From Bacteroides sp. (GTDB lineage: Bacteria > Bacteroidota > Bacteroidia > Bacteroidales > Muribaculaceae): 64,000 nt of DNA. Numbering within the stretch: the first letter of the stretch is position 1; each line of letters starts with the position of its first letter. Positions 1 through 62,893 of this stretch are shown one piece after another. Position numbers and translations under genes: made by a program. The stretch lies in the NCBI GenBank assembly GCA_023663525.1, contig JAMPHF010000001.1:389512-453511 (forward strand), read 5' to 3'. The notes beneath the pieces were generated by a model that ran no database searches, had not been told where the DNA came from, and worked only from the letters and a program-made list of their open reading frames with translations.

Positions 1-35
1 TCCCTCAAAGATTGCGTCGCCCTCGGTTTAACTTT

Positions 36-53
36 TGTTATGAGACACACTCT
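36..53 (+). repeat. Dispersed GTTATGAGACACACTCT motif, copy 1
   Basis: The motif lies 16 nt before the start codon of the GH105 gene. The preceding TTAACTTTT is also shared with the copy at 20940. Two further copies with one base change (ACGCTCT) form a tandem array at 49241. Here no TAnnTTTG box follows at promoter spacing, so this copy is not an obvious promoter. It may be the end of a mobile element lying to the left of the window; that is a guess. Confidence 0.5.
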
Positions 54-69
54 AAGATCACAGATATTC

Positions 70-1200
70 ATGAAAAAGATTTTGCTATCCGCACTTGCAG
101 CCTTGATGCTGCTCCCGCTGTCGGCTGCCGACCAGCTCCCACCACGAGAGGAAACACTGAAGACCATTGTCAAGGTCAATGACTACTACCTGAAGAATCA
201 TCCCGACCCGCTGCTGGGGATCCCGTACTACTCGCGCAAGAAAGTCTACGAGGCCAATATCTGGACACGTGCGGTCTATTTCGAGGGTCTGATGGCACTC
301 CATTCAATCTATCCCGACAACCGCTATTATGACTATGCCTACAATTGGGCCGACGGCTTCAAATGGGGTATGCGGCGCGACGACACTACGACCCGCAATG
401 CCGACAATTATTGCTGCGGTCAGACATACATAGACCTCTATCGTCTCACCCCCGAACCGAAGATGCTCACCAAGACCAAAGCATGTATGAACATGCTCGT
501 CAACACTCCGCAGGTCAATGACTGGACATGGATTGACGCAATCCAGATGGGTATGCCTCTGCTCGCCAAGATGAGTGCCATCACCGGCGATCCGCGCTAC
601 AATGAGAAGGCATGGCACATGTACAAATGGTCACGCGACACTCTTGCGGGCGGTCTTTTCAACGAAAAGGAGGGTCTTTGGTGGCGCGATAAGGATTTCG
701 TGCCTCCCTACAAGGAGCCTAACGGCAAAAATTGCTACTGGTCGCGTGGCAATGGCTGGGTGGTTGCCGCTCTTGCAAAGGTCCTGAACGAACTGCCCGA
801 GGATGCGCCTCACCGCGATGTCTACATCAACGATTTCAAGGCTATGTGTGACGCTGCCTTGAAATGTCAGCGTGAGGACGGATTCTGGAATGTCAGTCTC
901 CATGACGAGAGTAATTTCGGTGGCAAGGAAACCACTGGAACCGCACTTTTTGTCTACGGTATGGCCTGGGGCATTAACAACGGAATCCTCGACCGCAACA
1001 AGTATCTCCCGGCATTGACCAAGGGCTGGAACGCAATCGTCAACGATGCTATCCATCCTAACGGCTACATCGGTTATGTGCAGGGTACGGGCAAAGAACC
1101 TAAGGACGGTCAGCCGGTGGCCTACGACTCCAAGCCCGATTTCGACGATTACGGCACAGGCTGTGTCCTCCTCGCCGGCTCGGAAGTCTACAAACTGTAA
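70..1200 (+). CDS. GH105 unsaturated rhamnogalacturonyl hydrolase (YteR/YesR-like)
   Basis: Predicted secreted glycoside hydrolase of 376 aa that removes the unsaturated uronic acid left at the non-reducing end of pectin fragments by lyases. An N-terminal signal peptide (MKKILLSALAALMLLPLSA) supports the start at 70; the frame opens at 40, but that start would precede the signal peptide. The (alpha/alpha)6-barrel pattern is visible as NIWTRAVYFEGL, the WIDAIQMGMP segment whose Asp156 aligns with the catalytic Asp of YteR, and YWSRGNGWVVAAL. Two GH28 genes 2 kb away point to a pectin utilization locus. The family call is firm; the exact substrate (rhamnogalacturonan or homogalacturonan oligomers) is inferred. 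Confidence 0.9.
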   Translation: MKKILLSALAALMLLPLSAADQLPPREETLKTIVKVNDYYLKNHPDPLLGIPYYSRKKVYEANIWTRAVYFEGLMALHSIYPDNRYYDYAYNWADGFKWGMRRDDTTTRNADNYCCGQTYIDLYRLTPEPKMLTKTKACMNMLVNTPQVNDWTWIDAIQMGMPLLAKMSAITGDPRYNEKAWHMYKWSRDTLAGGLFNEKEGLWWRDKDFVPPYKEPNGKNCYWSRGNGWVVAALAKVLNELPEDAPHRDVYINDFKAMCDAALKCQREDGFWNVSLHDESNFGGKETTGTALFVYGMAWGINNGILDRNKYLPALTKGWNAIVNDAIHPNGYIGYVQGTGKEPKDGQPVAYDSKPDFDDYGTGCVLLAGSEVYKL

Positions 1201-1213
1201 TTCCTTGATTTGA

Positions 1214-1326
1214 GAGGGATATAAGAAGACAAGAGTCGCAGGAGTAACAAGGATTTATATATCAGGCATTTTCGTGCTGAAAAATCTCCTTGTTGCTCCT
1301 GCAACTCTTGTCTTCTTGTATCCCTC
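1214..1326. repeat. Long hairpin repeat, family A copy 1
   Basis: Inverted repeat with arms of about 43 nt. The left arm contains AAGAAGACAAGAGTCGCAGG and the right arm its near reverse complement. The loop contains GCATTTTCGTGCTGAAA, shared with copy 2 at 2610. It starts 14 nt after the GH105 stop and ends 8 nt before the convergent ATPase stop, so it could terminate both genes. Confidence 0.85.
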
Positions 1327-1333
1327 TTTTCGT

Positions 1334-2488
1334 CTACGTGGTCTTTTGAATCCAACTTGCAAAGAAGACATCATAAAGGCGGTATGTGTTATCGGTCTTG
1401 GTTATAAGACCTGCCTTTAGGAGTCCCCTGCAAGCTGATTGCATTGAGGCTGCCGTCTTGAATCCACTTGCTTCAAGAGAGTCGGCCGACAGAAGATTGT
1501 CAACAGGCCCTTTCTTGGCCAGATAAATAGCCAAAGAACGTTGCATCGGTGAAAGTCGCGCCATTATTTCACGATAGCTGTATTCCTGTACACCTATGAT
1601 GTTCTGCTCGGCAATCAGTATATCTTTCGGTTGTAAATTGCCGCCGGGAGGAGTTATCGCAAACAGTTCATTGAGCATCATCTGTATGAACCATGTAATG
1701 CCCGACATTTTATGATATACAGTCCGTATGACATCTTCCTCGCCCTCTTTTCCATACTCTGAAAATTTGCGCATTGCAAATTCGATGTAGGCTTTTTCCG
1801 GAATTGCCGGGAGATGCAACATGAGACAACTTTGGTAGAATGGACGTTTCACGCTATTGAACATAGCATTCATCACCGACTGTTCGCTCCCGGCAAAAAT
1901 AAAGCGCGTTCGAGGTGAGCGTTGAATGTAACTCCGAAACAGAGCCTCGGCTTTACCTTCACCATATTTGCTGATTTCCTGAAATTCATCAATAGCCACG
2001 ATTACCGGTCGGGGTGCATTTTCGAGATAGTCAAATATCTCTGCCAATGTCAGTTCAGGCTGCGTGAGATTGACAGCAGTCATTGACAGTGAAGGCACGC
2101 CGGTATGGGCATCGAATGTCACTGTCGGACGAAGGCTCTTCAACCCCTCGATGAAACGTTGCCAGGGAGAGTCCTTTTCGCGAGTAACGGCTTGGAAAAC
2201 AGCTTGCCCAAGCATTGCAACCAATTCTGCCACTGATGATGTCGCATACACATCGACAAAGACTGTCATATATTCCTTCGCCACGTCCTCTTGTGCAAAC
2301 AAATGTTCAATCAGCCCCGACTTGCCCATGCGTCGCGGTGAAATTATCGCTACATCGCGCCCGTTTCTGATTGACTTCTCAAGAAAGTGCAATTGTTCTT
2401 CCCTGTCACAGAAATATTTAGCCCCGGCATATCTCCCTATGACAAAAGGATTGGTTAATGTAATATCGTACTTTTGCTTCGTAGCCAT
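1334..2488 (-). CDS. AAA ATPase of the archaeal-ATPase/STAND-like group
   Basis: A 384-aa nucleotide-binding protein of the group often annotated simply as ATP-binding protein (resembling Pfam PF01637). A P-loop PRRMGKSGL is at about residues 51-59, Walker B VIVAIDEFQE at 162-171, and a sensor-like stretch RFIFAGSEQS follows near 196. The C-terminal third looks like a winged helix. The upstream frame continues to 2524, but the ATG at 2488 (MATKQKYDITL) fits the family better. The gene is visibly more AT-rich than its pectinase neighbours and lies between two copies of one hairpin (1214 and 2610), which suggests acquisition. A TAATTTTG box at 2524-2531 (minus strand) may be its promoter. The cellular role is unknown. 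Confidence 0.75.
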   Translation of the reverse strand: MATKQKYDITLTNPFVIGRYAGAKYFCDREEQLHFLEKSIRNGRDVAIISPRRMGKSGLIEHLFAQEDVAKEYMTVFVDVYATSSVAELVAMLGQAVFQAVTREKDSPWQRFIEGLKSLRPTVTFDAHTGVPSLSMTAVNLTQPELTLAEIFDYLENAPRPVIVAIDEFQEISKYGEGKAEALFRSYIQRSPRTRFIFAGSEQSVMNAMFNSVKRPFYQSCLMLHLPAIPEKAYIEFAMRKFSEYGKEGEEDVIRTVYHKMSGITWFIQMMLNELFAITPPGGNLQPKDILIAEQNIIGVQEYSYREIMARLSPMQRSLAIYLAKKGPVDNLLSADSLEASGFKTAASMQSACRGLLKAGLITKTDNTYRLYDVFFASWIQKTT

Positions 2489-2609
2489 TATTGAGGAATT
2501 GATTATTATGTTTATAATAATCACAAAATTAATAATTATTTCTTTAATAATGAAAATTTGTAATGAATTTTAGCGAAAATGCTCAGTTCATTTTGCGGTA
2601 AGACTGTGG

Positions 2610-2711
2610 GTACACGAGGACAAGAGTCTCAGGAGCAACGGGGATTATTTTTCAAGCATTTTCGTGCTGAAAGATCTCCTTGTTGCTCCTGAGACTCTTG
2701 TCCTCGTGTAC
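2610..2711. repeat. Long hairpin repeat, family A copy 2
   Basis: Inverted repeat whose left arm includes AGAGTCTCAGGAGCAAC and whose right arm carries the exact reverse complement. The loop GCATTTTCGTGCTGAAA is the same as in copy 1. It is followed by a T-run and lies 21 nt from the stop of the minus-strand lipoprotein gene. Confidence 0.85.
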
Positions 2712-2731
2712 TTTTTTTGTCCTGAATGGGA

Positions 2732-3112
2732 TTATTTTACCTCATTTTTTACACCGTATACGGAATCTGCGATTGCTGCGATGTCCAGAAGTTCGATGGT
2801 GTCACCGTCGGCCATTCTTTCGGCTATTATGTTGTTGGTCTGTTCGATGGATTCGTAGACAAATTGGTAGTCAGCAGAGTCTAATCCTAATTTCAATGCC
2901 TCATCCTGTCCGATTGTCATGATGTATTTTGTCCCTTCCAGTTTGACGTATGGAGCCATCAATGTAGAAGCCCGGCGGAGTTTCTCGATGTTTTCGATAC
3001 TTACTTTTTTCTCCTCTCGATCAGATATTGTGTCGCTTGATGAGCATGAGGTTGCTATGGATAATAGACAAGCAGCTCCGATGGTTGATTTTGTGAGTGA
3101 AAAACGTTTCAT
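2732..3112 (-). CDS. Small putative lipoprotein of unknown function
   Basis: A 126-aa protein with a lipoprotein signal peptide: basic MKRFSLTK, a hydrophobic stretch, and lipobox SIATSC near residue 23. The mature part is rich in charged residues (EEKKVSIENIEKLRR) with no domain I recognise. Coding sense is supported by the signal peptide and by a stop just after hairpin copy 2. The gene sits upstream of the GH28 pair on the same strand with a 31-nt gap, so it may share a transcript with them. Function unknown. Confidence 0.6.
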   Translation of the reverse strand: MKRFSLTKSTIGAACLLSIATSCSSSDTISDREEKKVSIENIEKLRRASTLMAPYVKLEGTKYIMTIGQDEALKLGLDSADYQFVYESIEQTNNIIAERMADGDTIELLDIAAIADSVYGVKNEVK

Positions 3113-3143
3113 TGAATGATATTGGTTTTCGGTTGTTTTCCTG

Positions 3144-4514
3144 TCACTTGACTGTCATCCCTTCGGTGTCGGTGGCGATGTAGGTTTCGCGCTCGTCGGG
3201 GTTGATGGTCTCTACGGTAACATTGTCGAATGTGATGTTGCGTGTATGGTTGAGCCAGAAACCTTTGGCGGGGAGTATGCCCCACATTGTAGATTCGGGA
3301 TACTCGGCCCGCTTCTCATCGGTGGGAGCGGCCACCTTCTTCTGACCTCCTTGTTGCCGGATGCGGATGTTGCGAAGCTCCACGTCCTTGACGGGGTGAC
3401 CTTCCAGGCCTGTGATGGACGATCCGGTCGGTCCGGCTTCGTCAATCATGATGTCGTGGAGGCAGATGCGCTCCATGCTGCCCACGCCGGTCACGGGGAC
3501 ATCGGGAGAACACGGACGGGCACGGTCGGCAAGACGGATGAAGATGGGCGATTCGGTGCCTCGGATGGTGATGTCGCCAATATCCACATTGGTCATAGTA
3601 CCGCCATCGACAATCTCAAGCACGATGGCTCCGTGACCGATTCCACCGGGGTAGCCGAAGAACTGGGTTGACTGGTCGGCGGAGGGTTTCACGGCGATGC
3701 CACGGATGATGATGTTGCGGAATCCGCCGTTGGTCTCCGTGCCGAGTTTGATGGCGTTGCAGTGGCTTGAGACCACGCAGTTGCTGATGACGATGTCCTC
3801 GCAGAGCCGTGGCGATGTGCTTTTGAGAGTGATGGCATCATCGTCGGAGTCGGCAATCATGTCGGAGACAGTGACATCATGGCAGCCGTCGAGGTCAAGT
3901 GCGTCATTATTGTAGTTGTTGCGGTTGACCACGGTTATACCACAGATTTTCACTTTATCGCAGGCAAGATAGTGCTGCATCCAGCAGCCGGAGTTTCTGA
4001 GCGTCACGCCGCTCACGGTGACACTGCGACATTGTATCATTCTCAGCAGGTGGGGGCGGGTGATACCCTCATCGTTCCACGACAGCTTGGGGAAAGTCTT
4101 CCCGCGACCGTCAATTGTACCCTCGCCGGTGATGGCTACGTTCTCCGCCTTGTCGGCATAGATCAGTTGTATGGTGGGAGTGTGGGTGCGCAGCGAGACG
4201 TAGTCGGTCTTGACCGGCACATAGTCCTTGATGTCAGTGCTGCCGTAGAGTGTCGCTCCGTTCTCAAGATTGAGGGTGACATTGCTTTTCAGGAATATGC
4301 TACCAATCTTGTAGTTACCTGACGGAACAAACACGGTGCCGCCTCCGGCTTCCGAACATTCGTCGATGGCTTTCTGGACGGCAGCAGTGCTGAGGCGGGT
4401 GGTATCGCTGACAGCACCGTATGCTGTGATGTCATGAATTGCTGCCGATCCGGGCATCAATAGTCCCGAGGTCAGCAGCAAACCAAAAAACATGAAAAGG
4501 CTAATGTGTGTCAT
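3144..4514 (-). CDS. GH28 polygalacturonase-like enzyme
   Basis: Secreted right-handed beta-helix hydrolase of 456 aa, predicted to cleave galacturonic-acid linkages in pectin. A signal peptide ends near PGSA. The N-terminal block ITAYGAVSDTT and AVQKAIDECSEAGGGTVFVP is typical of GH28/pectin-lyase-fold proteins. The catalytic region reads NNDALDLDGC then SDDDAITLKS, giving the three acidic residues. At the position of the classical GHG motif it has SHCNAIKLGTET, as in several Bacteroidales GH28 groups. It lies 16 nt downstream of the second GH28 gene on the same strand, so the two are probably co-transcribed. Exo versus endo action and the exact pectin domain attacked are not visible. Confidence 0.87.
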   Translation of the reverse strand: MTHISLFMFFGLLLTSGLLMPGSAAIHDITAYGAVSDTTRLSTAAVQKAIDECSEAGGGTVFVPSGNYKIGSIFLKSNVTLNLENGATLYGSTDIKDYVPVKTDYVSLRTHTPTIQLIYADKAENVAITGEGTIDGRGKTFPKLSWNDEGITRPHLLRMIQCRSVTVSGVTLRNSGCWMQHYLACDKVKICGITVVNRNNYNNDALDLDGCHDVTVSDMIADSDDDAITLKSTSPRLCEDIVISNCVVSSHCNAIKLGTETNGGFRNIIIRGIAVKPSADQSTQFFGYPGGIGHGAIVLEIVDGGTMTNVDIGDITIRGTESPIFIRLADRARPCSPDVPVTGVGSMERICLHDIMIDEAGPTGSSITGLEGHPVKDVELRNIRIRQQGGQKKVAAPTDEKRAEYPESTMWGILPAKGFWLNHTRNITFDNVTVETINPDERETYIATDTEGMTVK

Positions 4515-18603: not shown

Positions 18604-19566
18604 ATGATAGAGAGAATCGTTATTATCGACAATGTGGACCCCGTCAGTTTCTACGGTGTCAATAACAGCAACATGCAGTTGATCCGCAATCTGTTTCCGA
18701 AATTGCGCATGGCTGCGCGCGGCTCGGTCATAAAGGTTATCGGTGACGAACATGAGACTGCCGAATTTGAAAAACGGATAAAAGAACTTGAGGAATATTG
18801 TGTCAAATACAATAAGCTCACCGAGGAGGTGATTCTCGACATCGTCAAGGGCAAATCGCCTGAAGCTCCGAAGCACGACGATGTGATCATCTATGGGATA
18901 AACGGCAAGCCCATCAGCCCGCGCAACACCAATCAGGCTCTGATGGTGAAATCCGTGAGGGAAAACGACCTGACATTTGCCCTCGGTCCTGCCGGTACGG
19001 GTAAGACCTACATTGCCATCGCCCTCGCGGTCAGAGCGTTGAAAAACCGTGAGGTCCGCAAGATCATCTTGTCGCGTCCGGCTGTGGAGGCCGGTGAGAA
19101 GCTCGGATTTCTGCCGGGCGACATGAAAGATAAGATCGACCCCTATCTCCAGCCGCTCTATGATGCTCTTGAGGATATGATTCCGGCCGTCAAACTGAAG
19201 GAGTATATGGAGACGAATGTCATTCAGATTGCACCCCTTGCCTTCATGCGTGGCCGCACGCTCAATGATGCTGTCATCGTGCTTGATGAGGCGCAGAACA
19301 CAACCGTGCAGCAGATCAAGATGTTCCTCACACGTCTCGGCATGAATGCCAAGATGATAATCACGGGCGATGCTACGCAGATCGATCTCCCCCGCTCGGT
19401 GACCTCCGGCTTGATTCAGGCATTGAAGATACTGAAAGATGTCCCCGGAATCGGGAAGATAGAGTATAGTAAAAAGGATATAGTCCGCCATCCGCTCGTC
19501 CAGCGCATAGTCGAGGCCTACAACCGCTTCGACAAGGAGCAGGAAATCCCTCCGGAGGAAGCATAG
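18604..19566 (+). CDS. phoH: PhoH family ATPase
   Basis: A 320-aa cytoplasmic P-loop NTPase. Walker A GPAGTGKT is at residues 128-135, Walker B VIVLDEAQNTT near 220, and TGDATQIDLPRSVTSGL is the helicase-like motif of the family. The N-terminal ~90 residues contain the KH-like region seen in PhoH proteins. PhoH/YbeZ proteins associate with RNA processing together with YbeY. The gene is the last of the plus-strand unit from DUF4199 and ends 4 nt before a strong hairpin (19570). Confidence 0.93.
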   Translation: MIERIVIIDNVDPVSFYGVNNSNMQLIRNLFPKLRMAARGSVIKVIGDEHETAEFEKRIKELEEYCVKYNKLTEEVILDIVKGKSPEAPKHDDVIIYGINGKPISPRNTNQALMVKSVRENDLTFALGPAGTGKTYIAIALAVRALKNREVRKIILSRPAVEAGEKLGFLPGDMKDKIDPYLQPLYDALEDMIPAVKLKEYMETNVIQIAPLAFMRGRTLNDAVIVLDEAQNTTVQQIKMFLTRLGMNAKMIITGDATQIDLPRSVTSGLIQALKILKDVPGIGKIEYSKKDIVRHPLVQRIVEAYNRFDKEQEIPPEEA

Positions 19567-19569
19567 AGG

Positions 19570-19685
19570 GTACAGAAATTCATAAACAACATAAATGACA
19601 GATATTTTATCATGACCATTGGAGTAAAAACCGTGGTATAAAGATAATTAAATCTGTCATTTATGTTGTTTATGAATTTCTGTGT
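19570..19685. repeat. Long hairpin repeat, family A copy 3 (AT-rich arms)
   Basis: A perfect 32-nt arm pair starts ACAGAAATTCATAAACAAC and is mirrored by GTTGTTTATGAATTTCTGT. The left shoulder GGGTACAGAA resembles the other family A copies. It sits between the convergent phoH and MFS stops and probably terminates both. Confidence 0.75.
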
Positions 19686-19701
19686 CTACTATACTCCGGA
19701 T

Positions 19702-24789: not shown

Positions 24790-24798
24790 ATCTTATGT

Positions 24799-24915
24799 AA
24801 AGGGGACATAAGAGAATACAAAAAGGGCAGAAGTGACAAGGAAATTTTTTCAGGTTTGCAAATAACTGATAATTCCTTGTCACTTCTGCCCTTTCTGTAC
24901 TCTTTTGTGCCCTTT
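24799..24915. repeat. Long hairpin repeat, family A copy 4
   Basis: The left arm includes GGGCAGAAGTGACAAGGAA and the right arm has its exact complement. The shoulders AAAGGGGACATAAGAG and GTGCCCTTT also pair. It starts 10 nt after the receptor stop. The remaining ~110 nt up to the promoter at 25026 are AT-rich with no feature recognised. Confidence 0.85.
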
Positions 24916-31987: not shown

Positions 31988-32019
31988 TTTCTGACAACCA
32001 CGGTATAACCCGGTATAAG

Positions 32020-32136
32020 GGATACAAGAAGACAAGAGGCGCAGGAGCAACAGGAGAGATTTTTTGTCAGCGATATTGTTTACGGCTGAGAAAATAATCC
32101 TCTTGTTGCTCCTGCTCCTCTTGTCTTCCTGTGTCT
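32020..32136. repeat. Long hairpin repeat, family A copy 5
   Basis: The left arm GATACAAGAAGACAAGAGG and its pyrimidine-rich partner CCTCTTGTCTTCCTGTGTC enclose an inner GCAGGAGCAAC/GTTGCTCCTGC stem. The loop differs from copies 1 and 2. It starts 33 nt after the LpxA-type stop. Confidence 0.8.
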
Positions 32137-32200
32137 TTCATCACCTTCTGTATTTCAATCGGGATATAAATTTCGTATGAAAAATTGGTCAAGCGACGGT

Positions 32201-32788: not shown

Positions 32789-32877
32789 CGTACGGACATA
32801 CCTTCGGCATGTTTGATTTCAACCGCCTGCCGCACAGGAACATGCATCCCTAAACATGCCAAAGGCATCTCCGTACG
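32789..32877. repeat. REP-like hairpin, family B copy 1
   Basis: CGTACGGACATACCTTCGGC and the inverted GCCAAAGGCATCTCCGTACG bracket about 40 nt. Each end is itself a small hairpin. Further copies are at 60354 and 62808, with a half copy at 44917. Confidence 0.75.
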
Positions 32878-50835: not shown

Positions 50836-50929
50836 GAAGTAAAAGCAAGTAGTGTGTTATATGACTATTAGTTAACGAGAAAAATGTGGAATTATTGTCA
50901 ACCATTAATCGTCTGTCATTCGCCATAGG

Positions 50930-51170
50930 GCTTAAAAGGGTACAAAAGATACTAATCGTCATGGGGGTGAAAAGGGTACAGAAGGACAAGGGGGACATAA
51001 GTAACAGAATTATTTTTAGCTATCGCGCAGGTAATAAATAAGTTATCGTGCATGTGAAAAACATGTAAAACAACCCTTACGACTTAAAAATTTCTGTTGC
51101 TTTTGTTCCTCTTGTCCTTCTGTACCCTTTTCACCCCTGTGACGAATAGTATTTTCTGTACCTTTTTCAG
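50930..51170. repeat. Long hairpin repeat, family A copy 7 (largest)
   Basis: Arms of about 80 nt: the left contains AAAGGGTACAGAAGGACAAG and its complement CTTGTCCTTCTGTACCCTTT is on the right, and the outer parts pair as well (AGATACTAATCGTCATG with TGTGACGAATAGTATTTTCT). The loop is about 77 nt. It ends 25 nt beyond the DUF4369 gene stop. It occupies most of the 359-nt gap 50836-51194; the first ~95 nt have nothing recognised beyond AT-rich sequence upstream of the lipoprotein gene. Confidence 0.85.
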
Positions 51171-51194
51171 TCTAATGATCTGGACAATAATATA

Positions 51195-53340: not shown

Positions 53341-53479
53341 ACTGAAAAGAATACAGAAGGACAAGAGGGGACAGAAACGACAGATTTTTATATAATCAGC
53401 AAATTTTCAGTGGAAAATTACTCTGAAAATATTAATCCGTTACGTCTGTCCCCTCTTGTCCTTCTGTACCCTTTTCAGT
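53341..53479. repeat. Long hairpin repeat, family A copy 8
   Basis: AGAAGGACAAGAGGGGACAG on the left and CTGTCCCCTCTTGTCCTTCT on the right are exact complements. The loop is AT-rich and contains a smaller CAAATTTTCAGTGGAAAATT stem. It lies between the convergent pldA and tpx stops (25 and 22 nt away). Confidence 0.85.
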
Positions 53480-60353: not shown

Positions 60354-60438
60354 CCGTACGGACATGCCTTTGGCATGTTTGATATGTGGCTGTACGATAA
60401 GATGTTAAACGTAAACATGCCGAAGGCATGTCCGTACG
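60354..60438. repeat. REP-like hairpin, family B copy 2
   Basis: CGTACGGACATGCCTTTGGC and GCCGAAGGCATGTCCGTACG form the outer arms; each arm also contains a GGACATGCC/GGCATGTCC self-complementary tip. It lies 32 nt after the PgpH-like stop and 32 nt before the glycosyltransferase stop. Confidence 0.8.
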
Positions 60439-62807: not shown

Positions 62808-62893
62808 CGTAGGGACATGCCTCCGGCATGTTGAACGGATGTGTTTGTATGGTAGCTGATTAAGAGTGAACATGCCAAAGGCATGTCCCTACG
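62808..62893. repeat. REP-like hairpin, family B copy 3
   Basis: CGTAGGGACATGCCTCCGGC pairs with GCCAAAGGCATGTCCCTACG. GTAGGG replaces the GTACGG of other copies, and the change is mirrored in the other arm. It sits upstream of both divergent genes, 50 nt from the GT4 start. The rest of the 428-nt gap is AT-rich and holds the promoter at 63043. Confidence 0.8.

Follow-up and report, generated by a model that had tools for sequence, protein, structure and literature searches.

An apparently foreign AAA+ ATPase gene with a candidate private operator, flanked by two long hairpins in a Bacteroidales pectinase locus

The locus described here lies within a window of 64,000 nucleotides of Bacteroides sp. 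DNA, the whole stretch that was analysed. As the sequence-only reading of this DNA had noted, a single lower-GC ATPase gene on the minus strand interrupts a pectinase region. The gene sits between a GH88/GH105-type gene and a GH28 gene. Gene calls in the window were the longest open reading frames and are not an annotation. The features of the locus are as follows.

70-1200, plus strand: GH88/GH105-type glycoside hydrolase, left neighbour (Pfam Glyco_hydro_88, 307.5 bits)
1201-3143, no strand: stretch between GH105 and GH28 without a counterpart in four relatives
1213-1327, no strand: hairpin 1, between the convergent stops of the GH105 gene (12 bp away) and the ATPase gene (6 bp away)
1334-2488, minus strand: AAA+ ATPase of 384 aa, assigned to PF01637 (ATPase_2), with a winged helix at the C terminus by fold comparison
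2501-2551, minus strand: candidate private operator of four half-site units at 15-bp spacing (unit starts 2551, 2536, 2521 and 2506), shared with the L086 homolog
2502-2521 and 2532-2551: palindromes within the array
2524-2531, minus strand: TAATTTTG, a -7 promoter box of the Bacteroidota type, within the array
2608-2713, no strand: hairpin 2, 18 bp past the stop of the 2732-3112 gene
2732-3112, minus strand: small AT-rich gene, lipoprotein-like (signal and cysteine by eye), with no Pfam family
3144-4514, minus strand: GH28 family pectinase, right neighbour (Pfam Glyco_hydro_28, 69.8 bits)

The GC content and codon use of 1334-2488, which the sequence-only reading had proposed to compute, were compared across the 30 genes in the window that encode 250 aa or more. 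The ATPase gene had the lowest GC (0.462 vs 0.540 ± 0.022), the lowest GC3 (0.473 vs 0.673 ± 0.048) and the most deviant codon use of the set. Its closest homolog, 83% identical at the amino acid level, was found in another genus (G117; also record L086). The only homologs in the same genus, those of G020 and G021, were 38-39% identical and located elsewhere, adjoining pseudouridine-synthase-like and thymidine-kinase-like genes (names by eye). A ParE/GyrB-type protein gave the opposite order: it was 77% identical to its G020 counterpart and 72% to that of G117, whereas the ATPase was 38% identical to G020 and 83% to G117. Matches to the ATPase at E ≤1e-60 were present in 105 of 397 genomes of the host's taxonomic family, with a sporadic and multi-copy distribution. 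Sequence comparison indicates that the gene was acquired horizontally from outside the genus.

At the DNA level, the window and L086 were approximately 77% (76.6%) identical over 2541-1359, a stretch that opens 53 bp ahead of the start codon and ends close to the stop. Upstream similarity was also seen in L090, L091 and L092. The DNA shared with L086 covers the gene and about 53 bp upstream and does not include the hairpins, suggesting that the ATPase moves together with its promoter. Carriage by phage was considered and rejected: no relatives of the ATPase were found in viral contigs, and the searches of phage and plasmid records gave 2 and 17 records, with no identity exceeding 60%. Assignment to a defence system was also rejected, as PADLOC returned only a partial P-loop match (E 0.003) and NCBIfam two matches far below cut-off. 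Two further observations were made at homologous loci. A Bacteroides finegoldii plasmid record (L204) holds an unannotated, two-piece ATPase homolog between a sulfatase and a GH88 gene, a neighbourhood like that in the window. Immediately upstream of the G020 homolog is an inverted repeat with 58-nt arms, unrelated in sequence (L077 2133-2296).

The comparison with related genomes that had been suggested from the sequence was made on 16 same-genus stretches fetched around GH28; five, in which GH105 adjoins GH28, were comparable and entered the empty-site count, and the remaining 11 did not. In G026, G006, G001 and G004, GH105 and GH28 were convergent direct neighbours 75-288 bp apart, and these junctions held neither the ATPase nor a homolog of the 2732-3112 gene. 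Because both are missing between GH105 and GH28 in these relatives, the region that has no counterpart spans 1201-3143; it takes in both hairpins and the small gene, and its end lies past hairpin 2. The fifth comparable relative, G025, had a different gene of 293 aa at the junction, suggesting that the spot takes up unrelated genes. That gene (L060 1766-2647) is lipoprotein-like and occupies the same convergent GH105/GH28 junction. By eye, a hairpin or terminator-like palindrome could be seen at each of the relatives' junctions, a separate and unrelated one in each. Like the ATPase, the gene at 2732-3112 (GC 0.425) is non-syntenic, yet it lies outside the hairpin pair; its best match was 35%, and matches at E ≤1e-6 were found in 6 of 297 genomes, its own genome counted.

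The ATPase scored 42.9 bits against the PF01637 (ATPase_2) profile, for which the cut-off is 33.2. It has a P-loop (SPRRMGKS) and a Walker B motif (VIVAIDEF), and the core residues were invariant in four aligned sequences. An AlphaFold2 model from four sequences had a mean pLDDT of 68.2; most of the C-terminal third scored 79-91. The model ended in a helix-helix-helix-strand-strand arrangement, that of a winged helix. The best fold match was 2qen (PABY2304; Z 21.1 over 323 residues, rmsd 3.6), which was also a full-length sequence match, followed by 2fna (SSO1545; Z 19.6) and then by Orc1/Cdc6 and CED-4/NLR proteins at Z of about 14 to 16 (Orc1/Cdc6 about 15). The predicted fold, from a model of moderate confidence, is that of an SSO1545/PABY2304-like (Orc1/Cdc6-like) AAA+ protein with a C-terminal winged helix. 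The similarity of NLR and Cdc6/Orc1 proteins is among the subjects treated in PMC4599002. The two archaeal AAA+ proteins SSO1545 (2fna) and PABY2304 (2qen) are thus the nearest known relatives by above-cut-off PF01637 match, full-length match to 2qen and best fold; the ATPase here differs in being bacterial and in having a private array of 14/15-bp half-sites at its promoter.

In this array, successive units start at 15-bp steps: the first three, at 2551, 2536 and 2521, are the half-site ATTATT, and the fourth, at 2506, is the mirror form ATAATC. The -7 box TAATTTTG at 2531-2524 falls between array units. The -7 consensus of Bacteroidota is TAnnTTTG, and this pattern was present upstream of 67 of 74 homologs. 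The palindrome ATTATTAT-N4-ATAATAAT occurred exactly once in the genome, at the ATPase promoter; with up to 2 mismatches there were 6 genome sites, 2 of them here, and 2 for the reversed control pattern. Since the array is found nowhere else in the genome, gene and array would form a private, transfer-ready unit. By autocorrelation score, the best period of the window array was 23, not 15, and that of L086 was likewise different, at 18; both arrays are short and AT-rich, and neither is among the homologs counted below as having period 14 or 15. The window array is supported instead by its exact unit spacing, by k-mer pairs (p 0.002) and by conservation.

Array structure was assessed across homologs using 74 upstream regions (counting that of the window and omitting the duplicate L089) and 52 other window genes, so that the period control represents genes of this window only. 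Repeated and mirrored 7-mers were significant (p < 0.01) in 45/74 homologs and in 5/52 controls. The strongest upstream period was 14 (46 homologs) or 15 (11 homologs) in 57/74 regions compared to 6/52 controls (p 1.6e-13) and 2/74 shuffled sequences, and the remaining 17 of the 74 homologs had another best period. Direct 6-mer repeats were seen at 14 bp in 48/74 regions (4.4 expected) and at 28 bp in 30/74 (3.7 expected). The letters of the unit varied by homolog, with ATTATGC, ATTATCA, TATAGAA, CGCAA and ACGTAA types, and the pitch stayed constant. Bacteroides homologs outside the host's taxonomic family also showed 14 or 15 bp, and a Vibrio plasmid homolog only 25% identical had three CTAAATACT units at 14 bp. 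A clear 14/15-bp array was not seen at the Geobacter, Marinomonas and Arcobacter homologs.

The arrays were largely confined to the ATPase promoters. Of the 17 sites of the ATTATGCGATTTGCATAAT class (≤2 mismatches) found in 8 other genomes, 16 lay 24-94 bp upstream of an ATPase gene, and the reversed pattern gave none; the exceptional 17th site was intergenic, beside a mutS-like gene (name by eye). Together with the window genome, these genomes each show an operator-like array at the gene's own promoter and few or no sites elsewhere. Array similarity tracked protein identity (Mantel r 0.50, vs 0.17 when the more distal upstream sequence was used), and the arrays common to closely related promoters may reflect descent alone. 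With overall identity allowed for, the top column of 309 for array similarity was residue 355, which lies in the winged-helix domain's recognition helix, and 3 of the top 20 columns fell in this 13-residue helix, 12 columns of which were among the 309 tested (p 0.035, uncorrected). This is a weakly positive indication that recognition-helix residues track the array. Binding of these ATPases to a DNA target of defined sequence is very likely.

The ATPase gene is flanked, as the sequence-only reading had it, by two long hairpins with a common loop, and arms, folding and loop all agree with that description. The arms of hairpin 1 (1213-1253/1287-1327) are 41 nt long and 93% complementary; those of hairpin 2 (2610-2644/2677-2711) are 35 nt long and 94% complementary. 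Compared to 200 shuffles, both hairpins folded with z of about -15 on the plus strand and about -14 on the minus strand, with plus-strand folding energies of about -78 (hairpin 1) and -82 kcal/mol (hairpin 2). The loop word GCATTTTCGTGCTGAAA occurred exactly at 1266 and 2656 only; with 2 mismatches it was found at one more place (43785, minus strand; 0.18 expected at ≤3 mismatches), and the related loop AAGCATTTTAATGAAAA is present in a family member on contig C12, so that this loop subtype is not strictly confined to the edges of the ATPase. Hairpins 1 and 2 were 84% alike vs 70-74% to other copies, a closeness of which local copying is possibly the source. A T run follows the stem of hairpin 2 on one strand and is absent on the other, and hairpin 2 is therefore no textbook two-way terminator.

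The two hairpins belong to a larger family. A covariance model built from seven copies was used to score 131 candidates per genome, out of hundreds, and the counts are thus lower bounds: at least 66 strand-matches in the window's own genome (G000), at least 103 in G003 and at least 88 in G026, one of the relatives with an empty site. No match was found among the 131 scored candidates per genome in G020 and G021, where ATPase homologs are present, or near the ATPases of L086, L090, L091 and L092. The 24 distinct places listed in the window's own genome comprised 14 convergent, 10 tandem and 0 divergent gene gaps, and nearly all were nearer a stop codon than a start; at L216, a predicted start overlaps the hairpin. 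Of 16 sampled copies, among them the one at 24798 in the window (L213), 10 lay in convergent gaps, compared to 8 convergent gaps among 52 in the window (p 0.0005). Position at gene 3' ends with a convergent bias is what hairpins that end transcripts or protect their 3' ends would show, and transcript ends or 3'-end protection is the most likely function of the family.

Other members of the family lie in the window at 19560-19695, 24804-24912, 32018-32138, 50924-51177 and 53341-53479. Their arms seem to be made of purine-rich units of 8-9 bp, such as GGACAAGAG, and their stems vary from copy to copy with self-complementarity kept. Shorter palindromes with CGTACGGACATGCC-type arms make up a second family, seen at 32789-32877, 60355-60438 and 62808-62893, one of them between divergent genes. 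A much longer hairpin, with a second palindrome nested within the arms of the first, is present at L070 1465-1703 (G000:C9:640464-640702). The long-hairpin family is amplified in G003, G026 and G000, and the 24 remaining same-genus genomes have few copies or none, a patchy spread that suggests bursts of copying. In being high-copy, patchy, hairpin-forming and near gene ends, the family is like ERIC, REP and MITE-like palindromes; it differs in its stems of 35-50 bp, its fast-changing sequence and its lack of an Rfam match over cut-off. Below the Rfam cut-off, only microRNA-type models matched, as expected for any long stem. An origin as REP elements moved by RAYT was rejected: PF01797 (Y1 transposase) had no match at E ≤0.01 in G000, which is 99.86% complete, and was found in 6 of 14 control genomes. 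No description of the hairpin family was found in searches of open-access papers.

The sequence-only reading had proposed a mobile or recombining cassette with the hairpins as its boundaries. According to this proposal, the like-oriented hairpins would be the ends of an element, or would recombine with each other, and the ATPase would enter or leave between them. The notion of a mobile gene stood, the ATPase being apparently foreign and its site empty in relatives, and a foreign gene between two hairpins of the same loop and orientation, closer to each other than to any other copy, speaks for the proposal as a whole. The hairpins, however, did not hold up as boundaries. Their family is widespread at other genes without an ATPase, the DNA shared with L086 stops before both hairpins, and the non-syntenic stretch does not end at the hairpins, extending beyond hairpin 2 to 3143. 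Presence of the ATPase and of the hairpins also appeared unlinked, hairpins being abundant in G026 with its empty site and undetected among the candidates scored in G020 and G021 with their homologs. As the closest ATPase homologs also have no such hairpins and the genome has no detected Y1-type transposase, we consider a hairpin-bounded cassette highly improbable.

The array itself could be read in other ways. It could be the operator of a different, host-encoded regulator, with the ATPase merely its target; DNA binding by the ATPase is a prediction, and palindromic operators are known at some Bacteroidota promoters. We regard this as unlikely: the array letters change between homologs at constant spacing and follow the ATPase sequence, hardly any sites lie outside the ATPase promoter, and a period-14 array is present even upstream of the Vibrio plasmid homolog. 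Alternatively, the array could be an origin-like or sensor-like site of assembly or unwinding, where the ATPase oligomerises and autoregulation is a side effect. Archaeal Orc1/Cdc6 initiators have repeats next to their own gene, and an AAA+/winged-helix gene with iterons at its side is reminiscent of archaeal origins. The ATPase resembles these initiators in fold, combining AAA+ and winged-helix domains (Z about 15), and in the repeats beside its gene, and its fold places it near SSO1545 and PABY2304 and next to Orc1/Cdc6 and CED-4/NLR ATPases; this likeness leaves some room for the array as the assembly site of an ATP-driven switch. However, the array overlaps the promoter box, there is no sign of an origin, the ATPase is sporadic and multi-copy, the copies examined were chromosomal and solitary, and the loci read had no adjoining replication gene. 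A role primarily in assembly therefore appears improbable.

The account that we favour, and think probable, is of a horizontally acquired, self-contained and self-repressing ATPase with a private array, from which the hairpins are separate and have a role at 3' ends. The ATPase is predicted to bind the array through its winged helix, one subunit per half-site, so that neighbouring subunits would sit side by side, 14 or 15 bp apart. With the promoter box inside the array, binding would most likely repress the gene, and the array-bound ATPase may thereby control its own transcription. Gene and array would move together between genomes as a private unit; the hairpins would be a distinct high-copy palindrome family at gene 3' ends. 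A broader proposal, more tentative and on balance doubtful, is that of a widespread bacterial family of Orc1/Cdc6-like ATPases in which each copy has its own array of 14/15-bp half-sites, read by that copy alone. Array letters and recognition helix would change together, and the resulting mutually orthogonal, self-targeting pairs would be many, would move as single genes and, beyond simple repression, might assemble on the array or melt DNA there.

The ATPase with its private array is a more interesting object than the hairpins, and no description of arrays at this ATPase family was found in searches of open-access papers. The lesson of the hairpins is that palindromes beside a foreign gene need not mark the edges of that gene. 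The ATPase belongs to a common, unexplained "ATP-binding protein" family of gut Bacteroidales, and a candidate private operator of fixed pitch at nearly every copy is a first concrete handle on the role of this family. If the proposed relation between ATPase and array is true, the family would contain many orthogonal regulator-operator pairs, and this would explain how a lone gene spreads without a carrier operon.
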